Positions 2,877 through 19,105 of a stretch of 64,000 nucleotides of DNA are shown piece by piece (positions within the stretch are counted from its first letter, which is position 1; every line of letters starts with the position of its first letter). This stretch comes from a bacterium (GTDB lineage Bacteria; Patescibacteriota; Microgenomatia; UBA1406; GWC2-37-13). Location of the stretch: positions 186,001 through 250,000 of the forward strand of contig JAKBEU010000001.1 in the NCBI GenBank assembly GCA_021833625.1. Direction: 5' to 3'. The notes beneath the pieces are model-generated. The model searched no databases. It was not told the origin of the DNA and saw only the letters and a program-made list of their open reading frames with translations. A program made the translations under genes and the position numbers.

Positions 2877-4938
<2,062 letters not shown>

Positions 4939-4941
4939 ACT

Positions 4942-5454
4942 ATGGATCTATCAAAACTTTCAGTCGGTAAGAACCCGCCCCAAGAAGTCAATGTTGTTAT
5001 CGAAATCCCGCAAGGCTCACCGATTAAATATGAAATGGACAAGGAGTCCGGATTTATGAAGGTTGACCGGTTTGCATTCACGACAATGGTCTATCCGTTC
5101 AATTACGGATTTATCCCCAACACGCATGCAGAAGACGGAGATCCGGTTGATGTCCTTGTCATCTCCACCTATCCGGTCCAGCCGGGCGCATATATTTCGG
5201 TCCGCCCCATCGGCATGCTTGAAATGGAAGATGAAGAAGGGATTGACACAAAAATCCTTGCTGTCCCAACGGTCAAAGTCGATCCTTTCTATTCCGATAT
5301 AGAGGATATTGACGATCTTAATGAAACAGCAAAGAAAAAAATCCAACACTTTTTCAATTATTACAAAGAACTTGAAGCAAACAAATGGGTAAAAACCCGA
5401 AACTTTTTAGGAAAAGAAAAAGCGTACGAATCAATTAAACAGGGAATGAAATAA
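4942..5454 (+). CDS. ppa: Inorganic pyrophosphatase
   Basis: Family I soluble pyrophosphatase, 170 aa, which hydrolyses PPi to pull biosynthetic reactions forward. Metal-binding aspartates fall at the same numbers as in E. coli: D65, D67 and D70 (EDGDPVD), D97 and D102. [11 protein letters not shown] (51-61) is the family signature. The ATG at 4942 is chosen over an upstream in-frame ATG that would overlap gyrB in another frame. Lying between gyrB and gyrA, it probably shares their transcript. Confidence 0.96.
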
Positions 5455-9054: not shown

Positions 9055-9903
9055 ATGGATATCTACGTTCTCTTTGGCCAAACTGCAACGGGAAAAACCG
9101 CACGAGCCCTCGATCTTGTGAAAGAACAAGGAGGCGAGATTGTCAACTTCGACTCCCGACAGATATATAAAAAGCTTGACATTGTCACGGGGAAAGACAC
9201 GCCGCTTGACCCAACAATTAAAATCTGGCTGTATGATATCGTCGATCCGAAAGAATCATTCTCCTCGGCGGAGTATGTTGAAATGGCAAAAAAAATAATT
9301 GAAAATATTTTAAAAAGAGGTAAGACTCCCATACTCGTTGGGGGGACGGGATATTATCTCTCCCATCTTCTTTATGGAGTACCGGAAACGGGAGCAGGAG
9401 AGAATTGGGACTTACGGCAGAAATTAAACGGCAAGACGGTTTCCGAACTGCAATGTATGTTGAAGGAAAAAGATTCTCTCCAATTTGACAGCATGAACAA
9501 CAGCGACCGTAACAATCCCCGCCGCCTCACCCGCCGCATCGAACTGCTTGACGCCGGCGCCATTCTGTCTCCACCGCCAGTCCGCGACCTTAAAGGTCGC
9601 GCCTTCGGCGCGACACTTCACCTCATCCCCTTTTTCCATTCCTCAACCGAAAAGGTGAGGGAAGCTATCGAAAAACGGGTTGAAGCGAGAATACAGATCG
9701 GGGCAATTGAAGAGGTGAAAAAATTACTTGGCGAGGGATATACCGAAAAAGATCCCGGACTGAATGCGATAGGATATAAACAACTTATCTCATATGTTAA
9801 AGGGGAGAAATCACTTGATGATGCAAAGAAAGAATGGATAACGAAAGAGGTCCAATATGCTAAACGACAAAAAACCTATTTTAAAAAATTCTTTCCCGTT
9901 TAA
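9055..9903 (+). CDS. miaA: tRNA dimethylallyltransferase
   Basis: MiaA, 282 aa, adds a dimethylallyl group to A37 of tRNAs reading UNN codons. The P-loop GQTATGKTA starts at residue 7, DSRQIYK supplies the substrate-binding Asp, and VGGTGYYLSHLL and NPRRLTRRIELL are family motifs. Between RRIELL and the HLIPFF segment the protein reads VRDLKGRAFGATL, which is the in-frame translation of a palindromic interspersed repeat (9583-9601 plus flank). The ATG at 9055 is set by the family N-terminus. Its stop shares the TTAA tetranucleotide with the convergent lepA. Confidence 0.93.
   Translation: MDIYVLFGQTATGKTARALDLVKEQGGEIVNFDSRQIYKKLDIVTGKDTPLDPTIKIWLYDIVDPKESFSSAEYVEMAKKIIENILKRGKTPILVGGTGYYLSHLLYGVPETGAGENWDLRQKLNGKTVSELQCMLKEKDSLQFDSMNNSDRNNPRRLTRRIELLDAGAILSPPPVRDLKGRAFGATLHLIPFFHSSTEKVREAIEKRVEARIQIGAIEEVKKLLGEGYTEKDPGLNAIGYKQLISYVKGEKSLDDAKKEWITKEVQYAKRQKTYFKKFFPV
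9583..9613. repeat. CGCGACC palindromic repeat, copy 1 (inside miaA)
   Basis: CGCGACCTT-A-AAGGTCGCG (9583-9601) is a perfect 9-bp palindrome, followed by GCC-TTC-GGC as a second small hairpin. The identical 19-mer occurs at 28968 and 57603, with a variant at 29727. Here it is translated in frame within MiaA. Confidence 0.85.
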
Positions 9904-11696
9904 TTTTTTTTATTGAAGAGTTCCATGAATGCGGTTTTGGGAATCTCGACATGGCCGACAGCTTTCATCAATTTTTTTCCTTCTTTCTGTTTTTCAAGAA
10001 CCTTTCGTTTTCGTCCGAAATCTCCTCCACCAATAAGCTTTCCCTTATGCATCATGACATCCTTGCGGAAAGGAGAAATCCGTTCCGAGGAAATAATTTT
10101 TCCTTGAAACCTTGCCTGTATCTTTACTTCATACTGCTGGCGGGGAATAAGCTTATGCAATCTATGGGTCAGGAATTGGGCTTTTGACTGGGCACGTTCC
10201 GCAACGACAATTTCCGAGAATTCTTCAACCGGGTCGCCGTTAAGAAGAAGTTCCATTTTGTGTGCTTCGACTTTATCATGACGAATAAGTTCCCAATCAA
10301 GAGATGCATATCCACTCGTTACGCTCTTTAACCTATCAAAAAAGTCAGTAATAAGCTCTGAGAGGGGCATCTCATAGGTGAGCGCTATCTGATTCTTATT
10401 GTCCATCGTGATGAAGTGCGCGCGGTGTTCTTCGCACACTTTCATGACCGCACCGGTATAATCATTTGGCGTATAAATAAATACTTTTACAATTGGTTCA
10501 AGAAATTCCCCGTTTTTTTCAACGTATTCAACCTGCGGGGGAGTCAGGACAAGACTGAGTCCATATTCGCGTTCCAATCTTTCGCGTACGACGTCGGCAT
10601 GCAGTAGCCCCAAAAATCCGACACGAAACCCTGCGCCAAGTGCCGTACTATAAATACCGCTGAAGTCGAGAGCACTATCGGTCAGATACAATTTTTCCAA
10701 CGCTTTTTTCAAATTAAGATACTCGCTTGTCTCCGTCGGAAACATGCTCGCATACACCATCGGCTGTACTTTTTTATATCCGGCAAGGGGAGCGTCCATA
10801 TCTTTGGGCAACTGCATCGTATCACCGATTTGTATGGCATGAATGTCTTTTAAATTCGTTGCGACATATCCAATTTCTCCCGCTTTTATTTCGTCACACA
10901 CAGTAAGGTCGGGATGGAACATCCCAACCTCCGAGGCAATAAACGTGTTTCCTCCGTGAGCCATTTTAATTGACATGCCGGCAGAAAACGATCCGGAAAA
11001 AACGCGGACAAATGCAATTACTCCCTTATAGGTATCGTAATACGAATCAAAAATAAGTGCCTGTAATTTTTTTTCATTTTCCTGAAGTTTCGGGGGAGGA
11101 ATCTTTTCAATCACTGCCTGCAAAACCGCTTCGACTCCCTGACCCGTTTTTGCGGAAATGGAAAATATTTCGTCTTCGTTTACTCCGAGAAAATCGATAA
11201 GCTGTTTTTTTGTTTTGGGAACATCGGCGCCCGCCATGTCAATTTTATTGACGACAGGAATGATGACGAGATTTTTATCAAGTGCCTTATAGGCATTTGC
11301 AATGGTCTGCGCCTGCACTCCCTGCGTTGCGTCAACAAGCAAAATAACGCCCTCCACACAGGCAAGGGTTCTGTCCACTTCGTAGGAAAAATCCACGTGT
11401 CCCGGAGTATCAATAAGGTTCAAAATATACGTCGGCCCCGTGTTTGAACCTAAATTTGAAATTTGAAATTTAAAATTTGAAATCGTTTCGTTTTCTGCTG
11501 ACGTAGGAGAAACATAAGTCATCTTAACTGGCGCCAGCTTTATCGTAATCCCTCGTTCTCTTGAAACGGGATTCCGGTCCAGAAGTTGTTCTTCATGTTT
11601 TCCTGCCTTCACGACTCCCGTCAGCTCCAATAGACGGTCAGCAAGAGTACTCTTGCCGTGATCTACGTGAGCAATGATGGCAAAGTTACGAATCAT
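9900..11696 (-). CDS. lepA: Elongation factor 4 (LepA)
   Basis: Translational GTPase EF-4, 598 aa, which back-translocates or remodels stalled ribosomes. The P-loop region AHVDHGKST (9-17), RGITIKL (48-54), DTPGH (96-100) and the LepA C-terminal region are intact. Between switch I and DTPGH the protein carries extra residues, about 72-85 (ISNFKFQISNLGSN), encoded by a heptamer repeat array. Its start overlaps the pyk stop by 4 nt (ATGA), so lepA is probably translationally coupled to pyk. It converges with miaA. Confidence 0.95.
   Translation of the reverse strand: MIRNFAIIAHVDHGKSTLADRLLELTGVVKAGKHEEQLLDRNPVSRERGITIKLAPVKMTYVSPTSAENETISNFKFQISNLGSNTGPTYILNLIDTPGHVDFSYEVDRTLACVEGVILLVDATQGVQAQTIANAYKALDKNLVIIPVVNKIDMAGADVPKTKKQLIDFLGVNEDEIFSISAKTGQGVEAVLQAVIEKIPPPKLQENEKKLQALIFDSYYDTYKGVIAFVRVFSGSFSAGMSIKMAHGGNTFIASEVGMFHPDLTVCDEIKAGEIGYVATNLKDIHAIQIGDTMQLPKDMDAPLAGYKKVQPMVYASMFPTETSEYLNLKKALEKLYLTDSALDFSGIYSTALGAGFRVGFLGLLHADVVRERLEREYGLSLVLTPPQVEYVEKNGEFLEPIVKVFIYTPNDYTGAVMKVCEEHRAHFITMDNKNQIALTYEMPLSELITDFFDRLKSVTSGYASLDWELIRHDKVEAHKMELLLNGDPVEEFSEIVVAERAQSKAQFLTHRLHKLIPRQQYEVKIQARFQGKIISSERISPFRKDVMMHKGKLIGGGDFGRKRKVLEKQKEGKKLMKAVGHVEIPKTAFMELFNKKN
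11442..11483. repeat. Heptamer array read in frame inside lepA
   Basis: Six phased 7-bp units: GTTTGAA, CCTAAAT, TTGAAAT, TTGAAAT, TTAAAAT, TTGAAAT. TTGAAAT is also a unit of the intergenic array at 1704-1773 and, as TTTCAAA in another phase, of the S23 flank at 13715-13763. The 42 bp keep the lepA frame (14 codons). Confidence 0.8.
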
Positions 11697-13177: not shown

Positions 13178-13250
13178 ATTAATTTTTAATTTAAAGTTTT
13201 TAATTTTTATTCAAATCTCAATTTATAATTTAAAAATTGATTAAAAATTA
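13178..13250. repeat. AT-type heptamer array, 3' arm of S23 cassette 1
   Basis: About ten phased 7-bp units: ATTAATT, TTTAATT, TAAAGTT, TTTAATT, TTTATTC, AAATCTC, AATTTAT, AATTTAA, AAATTGA, TTAAAAA. It lies between the pyk promoter and the stop of the S23 gene and shares AAATTGA and TTAAAAA with the other arm. Confidence 0.7.
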
Positions 13251-13255
13251 AGAAG

Positions 13256-13609
13256 TCATTTTGTATTCGCAGCAATTGAAGAAAAAATGAGAGTCAATTC
13301 GTGCGCTTCTTTCCAAATAAGTCTACATTTTATCTTTATACTTTCCTCCTTAATTGTACTACCAAGCAGTCTCAGCCAATAGAGCGTTTCCTTTGCTTCT
13401 TTTTTACAAATATGAATTTTGTTCTTAAAGTCCTTTTTTGAAGCGGCTCCATTAGCCTCATAATAATTTGCTCCAATGCTTGTTCCACTTCTTACAAGCT
13501 GATCAATAATTGATTTGGTGACGACAGATATCTCAATTGTTTTTAAAAAACCAATTAGGCTTTCGCTAAACAAAGACACTCTTTCTTCAAGATTATATTG
13601 TTGATTCAT
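13256..13609 (-). CDS. S23/IVS four-helix-bundle protein 1
   Basis: Small protein of 117 aa in the 23S rRNA-intervening-sequence (S23, TIGR02436 / PF05635) four-helix-bundle family. Diagnostic: RSGTSIGANYYEANGAASKKDF, followed by KEAKETLYWLRLL. The family is known from insertions in rRNA genes, and related Avd proteins act in diversity-generating retroelements; its role here is unknown. The longer frame starts at TTG; the ATG at 13609 fits the family. It lies between pyk and prs and is flanked on both sides by AT-type heptamer arrays. Confidence 0.85.
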   Translation of the reverse strand: MNQQYNLEERVSLFSESLIGFLKTIEISVVTKSIIDQLVRSGTSIGANYYEANGAASKKDFKNKIHICKKEAKETLYWLRLLGSTIKEESIKIKCRLIWKEAHELTLIFSSIAANTK

Positions 13610-13714: not shown

Positions 13715-13767
13715 GGATTAAGAATTAAAAATTGATTAAAAATTTCAAATTTCAAATTAAAAATTAC
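13715..13767. repeat. AT-type heptamer array, 5' arm of S23 cassette 1
   Basis: Seven phased units, GGATTAA, GAATTAA, AAATTGA, TTAAAAA, TTTCAAA, TTTCAAA and TTAAAAA, running straight into the prs stop codon (13764-13766). It is roughly the inverse of the array on the far side of the S23 gene. Confidence 0.75.
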
Positions 13768-16559: not shown

Positions 16560-16594
16560 CTTTAAACTCTAAATACTAAATCCTAAACTCTAAA
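16560..16594. repeat. NNCTAAA heptamer array, 5' arm of S23 cassette 2
   Basis: Five phased units, CTTTAAA, CTCTAAA, TACTAAA, TCCTAAA and CTCTAAA, ending 3 nt before the S23 ATG. They are the reverse complement of the TTTAGNN units after the gene. Confidence 0.85.
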
Positions 16595-16597
16595 CAA

Positions 16598-16978
16598 ATG
16601 GAGCAAAATTCTAAATTTCAAAAAAACAAATATGATCTTGAAGAACACGTTACAAAGTCTAGTGAAAATTTAATAACTTTCTGCAAAGTTCTCCCTCCAA
16701 TAACTGGAGCAAAACCGCTTATCGATCAAATTATAAGGAGTGGTACTAGTATTGGGGCAAATTTTATGGAAGCAAATGCATGTGAAAGCAGGAAAGATTT
16801 CATAAATAAAGTTTCCATTGCCCGAAAAGAAAGTAGGGAAACACTGTATTGGCTCCGTTTATTATCCGTTCAATTCCCGGAAAAGAAAACGGCCTTGAGG
16901 ATTTTATGGAAAGAAGTTCATGAACTGTCTCTCATCCTCGGCGGCATATTAAAATCCACAAAAAGCAAGATGCTTTAG
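16598..16978 (+). CDS. S23/IVS four-helix-bundle protein 2
   Basis: S23-family four-helix-bundle protein, 126 aa. IRSGTSIGANFMEANACESRK and KESRETLYWLRLL match the gene at 13256-13609 closely, so the two are near paralogues. Its TAG stop is part of the first TTTAGTG unit of a long 3' array, and the 5' array ends 3 nt before its ATG. Gene and arrays therefore form one compact unit of about 550 bp filling the space between a secreted-protein gene and wzt. Function is unknown; the family suggests RNA- or nucleoprotein-linked roles. Confidence 0.87.
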   Translation: MEQNSKFQKNKYDLEEHVTKSSENLITFCKVLPPITGAKPLIDQIIRSGTSIGANFMEANACESRKDFINKVSIARKESRETLYWLRLLSVQFPEKKTALRILWKEVHELSLILGGILKSTKSKML

Positions 16979-17107
16979 TGTTTAGCATTTAGGGTTTAGG
17001 ATTTAGAGTTTAGTGTTTAGGATTTGGTATTTTGATATTCTTTAGTTTTTAGGATTTAGCACTTTGAGTTTGTTTAGTATTTAGAGTTTAAGATTTAGGA
17101 TTTTATC
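16974..17107. repeat. TTTAGNN heptamer array, 3' arm of S23 cassette 2
   Basis: Eighteen 7-bp units of consensus TTTAGNN (TTTAGTG, TTTAGCA, TTTAGGG, TTTAGGA, TTTAGAG and so on) with two 4-bp interruptions (17037-17040, 17069-17072). It begins with the S23 stop codon and ends exactly at the wzt stop codon. The first five bases are constant and the last two vary. There are no unique spacers, so it is not a CRISPR array. Confidence 0.92.
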
Positions 17108-17875
17108 TTAGCCTTCCATCATTTTTTCGTACATATCGGCAGCTTCTTTTATGTCGCCGAAGTAGAGTTGCTTTCCATTTTGAAGTACAAGTCCTTTCGT
17201 ACAATATTTCCGTACCATGTCGGGACTATGACTCACCATAACCATGGTACTTCCACGCGTTTTAAATTCCGCCATGCGGTTTAAACATTTTTTCTGAAAC
17301 TTTTGATCGCCAACAGCCAATATCTCATCAACAAGAAGAATGTCAGGAGTCTCGGCAACTGCAACGGCAAATGCAAGACGCATATACATGCCGGACGAAT
17401 AAAATTTGATTGGCTGATCCATAAATTCTTCAAGCTCTGAAAACGTTACGATTGACGGATACAGTTTTTCCATCTCTTTGCGTTTTATTCCCAAAATCGA
17501 TCCGTTGAGATAGACGTTTTCCCGACCCGTCAACTCCGGGTGAAATCCTGCACCAAGCTCGATAAGAGGAGCGATCCGTCCTTCAACTGTAATACGTCCG
17601 TCTGAAGGCTTTGTGACCCCTGCAATGACCTTCAGAAGGGTAGATTTGCCGCTTCCATTCTTACCTAATATCCCCAAGGACTCTCCTTTTTCCAGTTCAA
17701 AATCAAGATGAGATAATGCGTCAAATTGGACTCTCGTTTCTTTCCGTCCAATGAGGGCAGGCAAGAATTCTTTAAACGTCTTTTGTTTCTGTAAGCTATA
17801 TCGTTTGCTTATATTCTCAGCTCTAATAGCTACTAGTCGATGGTCATTGGTAGTTGGTAGTTGGTTAGGCGTCAT
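17108..17875 (-). CDS. wzt: Polysaccharide ABC exporter ATPase (Wzt/TagH-like)
   Basis: ATPase of an ABC-2 glycan exporter, 255 aa. Walker A GILGKNGSGKSTLLK, signature YSSGMYMRLAFA, Walker B DILLVDEILAVGD and the switch His (VSHSPD) are intact. It lacks the C-terminal carbohydrate-binding domain of O-antigen Wzt, so it resembles TagH or short Wzt. Residues 3-17 (PNQLPTTNDHRLVA) are encoded by a heptamer array, so the native N-terminus seems replaced; no other start is visible. It pairs with the permease at 18305-19105 but is separated from it by an S23 gene. Confidence 0.92.
   Translation of the reverse strand: MTPNQLPTTNDHRLVAIRAENISKRYSLQKQKTFKEFLPALIGRKETRVQFDALSHLDFELEKGESLGILGKNGSGKSTLLKVIAGVTKPSDGRITVEGRIAPLIELGAGFHPELTGRENVYLNGSILGIKRKEMEKLYPSIVTFSELEEFMDQPIKFYSSGMYMRLAFAVAVAETPDILLVDEILAVGDQKFQKKCLNRMAEFKTRGSTMVMVSHSPDMVRKYCTKGLVLQNGKQLYFGDIKEAADMYEKMMEG
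17830..17864. repeat. TAGTTGG heptamer array, 3' arm of S23 cassette 3
   Basis: Five phased units, CTACTAG, TCGATGG, TCATTGG, TAGTTGG, TAGTTGG, abutting the S23 stop codon. On the minus strand they read CCAACTA-type and encode the first residues of Wzt. Confidence 0.85.
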
Positions 17876-18233
17876 AGTTTTTCTTTATTGATAAAACCAA
17901 AGAACTTATTTGTTTATTTAATACGACATATCTTTCTTCTAAAGACAAATACTCCTCTTCATTTACATACCCTAAATCTTTTGCCAATAATAAATGGTTT
18001 ATTGTTTCAGTCAACGAACCTTTTGCTATGTACAAAAACTGCGTAAACTCTTTTTTACTTCCTCTTGAGAATCCCTCTGCTATATTTGCCCCAACCGACG
18101 AAGATGACCTTCGCAGCTGGCTCACAATCCCATACATTTCTTCCTTCGGAAACATGCCTGATGTCTTATATATTTGGACAGTAAGCTCATGAGCTAACTG
18201 CCAAACTCTCAAATCCCTAAACTCTCTAATCAT
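17865..18233 (-). CDS. S23/IVS four-helix-bundle protein 3
   Basis: Four-helix-bundle protein of the S23 family, 122 aa. FRDLRVWQLAHELTVQIY is the family N-terminus, then RRSSSSVGANIAEGFSRGSKKE. It is more distant from the other two S23 proteins here and belongs to the common stand-alone branch. It sits between wzm and wzt, which normally adjoin, and overlaps the wzt start by 11 nt. Arrays of inverted CCAACTA/TAGTTGG heptamers bound it, so it looks inserted into the exporter operon. Function is unknown. Confidence 0.88.
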   Translation of the reverse strand: MIREFRDLRVWQLAHELTVQIYKTSGMFPKEEMYGIVSQLRRSSSSVGANIAEGFSRGSKKEFTQFLYIAKGSLTETINHLLLAKDLGYVNEEEYLSLEERYVVLNKQISSLVLSIKKNYDA

Positions 18234-18242
18234 TGTTTTCTT

Positions 18243-18307
18243 CCAACTACTAACTACCAGCTCCTTGCCTTACCAACGACCAACTACTATCCACCAACTA
18301 CTAACTA
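18243..18307. repeat. CCAACTA heptamer array, 5' arm of S23 cassette 3
   Basis: Nine 7-bp units (CCAACTA, CTAACTA, CCAGCTC, CTTGCCT, then after two bases CCAACGA, CCAACTA, CTATCCA, CCAACTA, CTAACTA). The last unit contains the wzm stop codon (18305-18307). Orientation is opposite to the arm at 17830-17864. Confidence 0.88.
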
Positions 18308-19105
18308 CACATAATCTGCAAACTGTCCTTCCAACTTCTTAAAGGTGATAAATCCTAATATAAAAATCAGTGTCGAAACGAGCGCTGCAATCGTGAGACT
18401 GTAAAAGTTTGGATTATTGTTGGAGAGAATAACTTGTCGATATGCATTCACAATAACTGCCATTGGGTTGAGAGACATCACAAACCGATATTGGGGAGGA
18501 ATTATTTCAATCGGATACATGATAGGTGTCATATACATCCACAATAGAATGATAAGATTCAACAAATATTGAATATCCCGATAAAACAGATTGAATGCCG
18601 CAACAAAAAGAGCGATGCCCCCGGTAAGAAGGAGTTGTATCACTAAAATAACGGGGATCCATAAATAATAAATGGTAAGCGGGATGCGAAAAATAATGAG
18701 GAATGCAATAAGGACCAGACACGAATACCCGAAATCAACCATCTTTGCAATGATGGTAGAGAATACTAATATTTCTCTCGGGAAATATATTTTCGTAATG
18801 AGATTGCTATTGCCCACCAATGACATTGACGAAGATCCAAGACTTTGAGTAAAAAAATTCCAAGGAAGAAGAGCAACCGAAAGAAAGATGATAAAAGGTA
18901 CTCCGAGGGAGGCAACATGTAATATCTTATCAAATACGAAGCTCATCACGATAAGCTGGAACAGGGGATTGAGGATAACCCATGCATACCCCAAAGCAGA
19001 CTGCTTGTATCGTTGCGTAATCTCACGATTTGCAAGATTCCACAGCAACTCACGATAGTCCCAAAAAAGACGGGAATTCGTGACCAACTTTTTGATCTTG
19101 CTCAT
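18305..19105 (-). CDS. wzm: Polysaccharide ABC exporter permease (Wzm-like)
   Basis: ABC-2 type permease, 266 aa, six predicted membrane helices; partner of the Wzt-like ATPase for exporting undecaprenyl-linked glycan. The N-terminal stretch LLWNLANREITQRYKQSALGYAWVILNPL is the family hallmark. ATTGTA at 19112-19117 (TACAAT on this strand) lies 6 nt before the ATG, so the mRNA is likely near-leaderless. Its last codon and stop run into the S23-3 heptamer array, which separates it from wzt. Confidence 0.93.
   Translation of the reverse strand: MSKIKKLVTNSRLFWDYRELLWNLANREITQRYKQSALGYAWVILNPLFQLIVMSFVFDKILHVASLGVPFIIFLSVALLPWNFFTQSLGSSSMSLVGNSNLITKIYFPREILVFSTIIAKMVDFGYSCLVLIAFLIIFRIPLTIYYLWIPVILVIQLLLTGGIALFVAAFNLFYRDIQYLLNLIILLWMYMTPIMYPIEIIPPQYRFVMSLNPMAVIVNAYRQVILSNNNPNFYSLTIAALVSTLIFILGFITFKKLEGQFADYV

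Follow-up and report, generated by a model that had tools for sequence, protein, structure and literature searches.

The TTTAGNN array at positions 16974-17107 (forward strand) of the window, i.e., the whole stretch of 64,000 nucleotides analysed here, is probably the 3' arm of a mobile S23 element whose ends undergo sequence-specific recognition, with the S23 protein as the likeliest binder. This element (S23 element 2; about 546 bp, 16562-17107) is built of an arm, an S23 gene and an inverted arm. The other two S23 genes of the genome are both located in the window as well, each between inverted arrays of its own, different unit:

13179-13255, forward strand: 3' arm of S23 element 3, TTAATTT units
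13256-13609, reverse strand: gene of S23 element 3, 117 aa, PF05635 E=2.6e-13
13717-13766, reverse strand: 5' arm of S23 element 3, TTAATTT heptamer, inverted
16562-16597, reverse strand: left (5') arm of S23 element 2, CTAAANN on the forward and TTTAGNN on the reverse strand
16595-16609, forward strand: inner terminal box CAAATGGAGCAAAAT with the S23 start codon inside
16598-16978, forward strand: S23 / 23S_rRNA_IVP gene of element 2, 126 aa, four-helix-bundle protein, PF05635 E=4e-15, TIGR02436 E=2e-20
16974-17107, forward strand: right (3') arm of S23 element 2, an array of TTTAGNR with 13 exact units and several degenerate ones
17843-17875, forward strand: 3' arm of S23 element 1, TAGTTGG units on the forward strand
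17865-18233, reverse strand: gene of S23 element 1, 122 aa, PF05635 E=1e-39, inserted between wzm and wzt
18240-18311, reverse strand: 5' arm of S23 element 1, TAGTTGG units on the reverse strand

The scores of two of the window genes lie well within the S23 / 23S_rRNA_IVP family, with 56.3 and 135 bits for PF05635 (curated cut-off 33.8) and 73 and 125 bits for TIGR02436 (cut-off 24). In S23 element 2, the TAG stop of the S23 gene (16976-16978) falls within the first unit of the array, and the far edge of the array is the stop codon of wzt (ORF 17108-17875, reverse strand). The sequence-only reading, according to which the array exactly fills the gap between these two stop codons, had the borders right; what it described is, however, an element end, one of two mirror-image ends, and the upstream CTAAANN partner at 16562-16597 had been missed. 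This left arm has about 4.5 units with a CAAAT box at its end, which was also found in gene-less copies of the element (see below), whereas the distal end of the right arm, GTTTGTTTAGTATTTAGAGTTTAAGATTTAGGATTTT, is the conserved terminus. The element is flanked by a surface-protein-like gene on one side and by wzt on the other, outside any rRNA gene. The start of the wzt ORF (MTPNQLPTTNDHRLV...) is itself encoded by the 17843-17875 arm of S23 element 1, from which its N-terminal residues come, and the native start probably lies more internally, close to the VAIRAENISKRY stretch.

Three consecutive units written as the pattern TTTAGNNTTTAGNNTTTAG with up to 2 mismatches were matched 14 times in the window against 0.37 expected, a count reached in 0 of 100 shuffles, which excludes a chance origin of the array. 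The array is therefore real, albeit its description needed correction. Instead of eighteen units with a constant TTTAG, only 13 are exact; the remaining ones are degenerate (TTTGG, TTTTG, TTTAA) or lie off the register, which breaks near 17035, 17063 and 17069. Neither are the last two bases almost free: in the TTTAG-family elements of the window genome (G000) and two genomes of the same genus (G001 and G002), 177 of 185 units have a purine as their 7th base, and C hardly ever occurs as the 6th. The true unit is TTTAG-N-R, with an inherited degeneracy of the 6th and 7th bases, and TTTAG is a constrained core, as the sequence-only reading had it. An artefact of assembly is unlikely, since the same family recurs in complete plasmids and in genomes that were assembled independently.

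The combination of a constant core with a variable remainder in the window had been attributed to templated, error-prone growth as in telomeres, or to TTTAG being selected at 7-bp intervals as a signal in its own right. Both are now very improbable. In orthologous arrays of G001 and G002 (six pairs), where the count of core differences is biased downwards because a core had to be recognizable by sequence in one or both arrays, the indel-free ones (right arm of S23, loci E and E2) differed at 0 of 26 NN and 4 of 50 core positions, and all six pairs pooled at 14 of 72 NN against 13 of 139 core positions (p=0.05). The pooled excess of NN changes is driven by loci C and F, with unit gain and loss or realignment; at locus C, the arm of L183 has acquired units and is homogenized to (TTTAGTG)5, and that of L174 has AA, AG, TG and GA. 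The alignment of strains thus confirmed that the unit number changes, but not that the NN positions evolve faster where no indel occurred. Moreover, the left-arm NN string TC-TA-CA-TC is identical in three elements at different loci (L006, L172 and L184), which means that the NN bases are inherited; the units are passed on and occasionally duplicated. A PF00078-type reverse transcriptase was sought in the genome and not found, so that neither templated growth nor a diversity-generating retroelement / Avd system, defined by a reverse transcriptase in the genome or nearby, has its enzyme here. The array is, in addition, internal (G000:C2, about 203 kb into a 528-kb contig), with degenerate units and an inverted partner, unlike telomere repeats, whose identical templated units run in a single orientation at the end of a replicon. 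The core and period vary between elements, and the inverted partner is always present.

Ordinary slippage repeats, standing beside S23 genes by coincidence, are hardly a more credible explanation. Slippage would account for the unit gain and homogenization seen in L183 compared to L174 and for the 2-3 heptamer copies among Coxiella strains (PMC4990558). However, it cannot give an inverted partner of equal unit and period across the gene in several phyla, nor precise empty sites (see below); that plain slippage is insufficient had been rightly recognized from the sequence, and the statistics of inverted pairing contradict it as the explanation.

S23 genes are common among related bacteria: PF05635 was found in 44 of 57 genomes of relatives, with up to 13 copies per genome, and a sample of 116 genomes from across the phylum had it in 70. 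From about 40 related draft genomes, 93 S23 loci were cut out and the flanks examined within 120 bp of the gene. The top autocorrelation lag was 7 in 47% of the upstream and 52% of the downstream flanks, against 10% of control stretches, and other elements have units of 8, 9 or 10 bp. Inverted 6-mer sharing between the two flanks of the same gene amounted to 18.2, compared with 5.6 (sd 0.46) for shuffled partners and with 7.6 for the direct orientation; the own partner ranked in the top 5% at 62 of the 93 loci. An identical best period at both ends was found at 55 loci, where 26 were expected and the maximum of 2000 shuffles was 37. At about one third of the loci, the arrays are weak or not detectable. 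The unit type follows the S23 clade, for example with an 8-bp ATTGTTNN in one and a 9-bp AAAGTNNNN in another, and both the sharing of end 6-mers and the identity of period rise with S23 protein identity (Mantel r 0.18, permutation maximum 0.098), although co-inheritance could account for part of this co-variation. The different units of other clades make the constant core with a variable remainder a general property, specific neither to TTTAG nor to 7 bp.

The same arrangement extends to other phyla. At 24 S23 loci from plasmids of Cyanobacteria and Bacteroidota, from Margulisbacteria and from one Azospirillum replicon, own-partner sharing was 17.3 against 5.3 (sd 1.1, maximum 9.9 of 2000). 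The Azospirillum element (L168) is located inside a 23S rRNA gene, on its sense strand, with heptamer arms GGACAGA/GGACGGA at both ends; by its location, it is a classical intervening sequence (IVS). S23 was also sought in phage records and viral contigs, where none was found. On cyanobacterial plasmids, some S23 elements (L158, L159 and L169) are located inside CRISPR-cas operons: two genera have them between cas6 and cas4 of type I-D, and in type III-B the neighbours are cas10 and a cmr3-family gene.

Apart from complete elements, the TTTAG family includes gene-less copies of 75-190 bp in which both ends are retained. The window genome has three of them, in the dnaX-ybaB, hisS-prfA and thyA-dcd intervals (genes named by ORF resemblance), and G001 and G002 have many more. 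Their plan is (NNCTAAA)3-5-CAAAT-N4-6-CAAAAT ... (TTTAGNN)3-5, partly degenerate, and the two ends can be distinguished from each other. Because the inner box CAAAT-N4-6-CAAAAT corresponds to the start-codon sequence CAAATGGAGCAAAAT of the S23 gene, the gene-less copies are, judging from this sequence, most simply taken as deletion derivatives of S23 elements. Being short, non-coding and furnished with the ends of an autonomous element, they conform to what is called a MITE. A copy of an S23 element that retains both ends and has lost the middle was likewise found on the Nostoc plasmid pC052_A. In the genome array searches, the reversed-pattern control was not neutral because other heptamer families match the reversed pattern. 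Among further arrays, those of one relative at G014:C49:2219-2286 and C22:10501-10568 are long, near-pure and strongly homogenized TTTAGGA arrays. Within the window, AT-rich inverted 7-bp stretches at 1700-1770 (AATTTTTAATTTGAAA...) and 4905-4945 (ATTTAAAATTATCAATTTTAAAT) resemble, by their letters, gene-less copies of the TTAATTT family. An AAATTTG heptamer stretch at 11440-11486, in frame within a lepA-like ORF (9900-11696, reverse strand), encodes ISNFKFQISNL in the G domain region and has the look of an array that entered a coding gene and left the frame unbroken.

Movement is recorded in orthologous sites that are occupied in one genome and empty in another. The dnaX-ybaB interval carries an element in G000 and none in G001 and G002; downstream of ybaB, there is one in G001 and none in G000. 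The hisS-prfA element is present in G000 and G002 and absent from G001. Between wzm and wzt, S23 elements are present in G000 and G007, in comparison with a direct junction in G009 (L202). A further case is a locus common to the Nostoc plasmids pC052_D and pNsp_c, with 93-99.7% identity of the flanks: an AGTCAGG-type S23 element on one plasmid faces an empty site on the other, and a few hundred bases along, the presence and absence of an AAAGGGG-type S23 element are reversed. Each of the two elements has a stop codon on one side and a start codon on the other. Between copies at different loci, homology stops at the arrays. An orthologue comparison of G002:C44 was set aside, as the flank match stopped short of the array. 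Presence and absence at orthologous sites, together with homology ending at the element ends, are what marks a mobile element. No clear target duplication was visible at the junctions of these sites, and the element encodes S23 only, with no transposase identified in a non-exhaustive search. The wzm-wzt elements of two genera (L203 of G007 and 17865-18233 of the window) have different units, which suggests a hot spot or turnover of units in place. After ybaB, at the site occupied by a TTTAG element in G001 and empty in G000, G002 contains another kind of insertion, about 119 bp long, whose inverted ends resemble GGAATATTTTCC (L188, 1381-1499).

These observations point to arrays that would serve as element ends made of iterated sites, with TTTAG as the constant core in this family and a core of 5-6 bp at 7-10 bp spacing in other clades. 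The S23 proteins are basic (median pI 9.5) and related to the solved structures 2gsc and 2rld, with five chains per entry; the Xanthomonas campestris S23p is reported to form a toroidal homopentamer (PMC4990558). With the ends iterated, clade-specific and inverted and the protein basic and pentameric, we infer binding of the units by S23, which would keep the two ends together. The sequences thus make S23 the most likely, if putative, binder of the end sites, and a pentamer would be able to gather both inverted arrays. The gene-less derivatives would then be moved in trans. To our knowledge, S23 has no catalytic site, and cutting and joining would be performed by a host enzyme or one acting in trans. 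The arrays would lengthen, shorten and homogenize through unit duplication with the core retained, and the same element inside a 23S rRNA gene is the classical IVS.

Alternatively, the arms might act in RNA: the inverted arrays would pair into a long stem cut by RNase III as in the IVS of 23S rRNA, so that the element is removed from polycistronic messages and becomes harmless at its landing site, and repetition would offer many pairing registers. We regard this as rather unlikely to be the explanation of the arrays, but as a serious companion hypothesis. It is favored by the folding of the S23 element and gene-less copies, which is better than that of shuffles (z -2.6 to -6.6; the stem predicted for the whole of S23 element 2 has z -2.6), by the array-bearing Azospirillum element on the sense strand of 23S rRNA and by the Coxiella IVS, where heptamers coincide with the RNase III site and a 28-bp stem is present (PMC4990558). 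Moreover, S23 genes are co-oriented with the flanking operons on the same strand 46:4, which indicates that S23 expression or RNA-level processing also matters. On the other hand, the gene-less copies have no orientation preference (6:5), and the movement of the elements is left unexplained by processing of RNA. The match of variable bases was also lower between the arms of one element than between elements (19.4 vs. 22.2), mostly as a consequence of the two ends differing in sequence. Arm-to-arm covariation of the NN bases, which could have proven a hairpin, was accordingly not found, and selection against perfect palindromes was rejected as a cause of the low match, which is explained by two distinct ends occurring in both orientations. 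Insertion into RNA targets, considered because of the S23 co-orientation, was discarded as well, since the gene-less copies lack the bias; selection on S23 expression is the more likely reason for it.

Recognition of the DNA ends by S23, if true, would mean that the specificity is written in clade-specific iterated end arrays of 7-10 bp. We know of no function assigned to the S23/IVP family since the 1990s, when the work on IVSs was done, and the intergenic heptamers of Cyanobacteria, Xanthomonas and Beggiatoaceae have so far been ascribed to slippage or to some unknown regulatory role. Should S23 genes and arrays form one mobile element, the function of the former and the origin of the latter become testable at once, in particular whether S23 binds its own array and moves gene-less copies. 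For annotation, this suggests that such arrays should be called element ends and that some start codons, as here in wzt, are misplaced inside them. The S23 gene family, the IVSs, the idea that these were once mobile, and isolated heptamer repeats are already known. In the literature searched, which excluded bioRxiv and most subscription journals, S23 with repeats appeared in isolated cases only, such as the Coxiella IVS heptamers; a general rule of inverted short-period arrays bounding free-standing S23 genes, clade-specific units, gene-less copies and orthologous presence/absence of whole S23 elements were not found there.

Among known systems, the closest are the 23S rRNA IVSs of Coxiella, Leptospira and Azospirillum, which have the S23p/IVP family and terminal inverted repeats in common with the window elements. 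The Coxiella IVS carries three tandem GACAGAT and one GACAGAA directly 5' of the S23p start codon, with two or three heptamer copies among strains and a 28-bp terminal stem; RNase III cuts at the first repeat, and the repeats were presented as a local feature (PMC4990558). S23 element 2 shares the terminal inverted repeats of tandem heptamers, but not the location inside an rRNA gene: the window elements are free-standing between protein genes, several per genome; the units of such elements, 7-10 bp long, are specific to the clade, and derivatives without the gene exist. Heptanucleotide repeats of Cyanobacteria, Xanthomonas, Nostoc and Beggiatoaceae (STRR; GGGAATC; TAACTGA) are likewise intergenic tandem heptamers of variable copy number with an unexplained distribution; in contrast to the S23 arrays, no link to S23 or to inverted pairs was found in these reports (PMC4692102, PMC4679880), and the link between heptamers and S23 was examined here for S23-flanking arrays on cyanobacterial plasmids only. 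Tentatively, and with less confidence than for the array itself, S23 could be the end-recognition module of widespread transposase-less elements that underlie the rRNA IVSs and many of the intergenic heptamers. The gene-less copies behave like MITEs in their size of 75-190 bp, their retained ends and lost coding part, their dispersal and their empty orthologous sites, but differ from them in having degenerate short-period arrays as ends, no known transposase partner and no clear target duplication. Transposons of the Tn7/Mu type have iterated transposase sites at both ends, inverted. Their several inverted binding-site copies per end are matched by the S23 arrays, likewise iterated and inverted; S23 elements are, however, devoid of a DDE transposase, repeat every 7-10 bp and have a four-helix bundle protein as their sole gene product.
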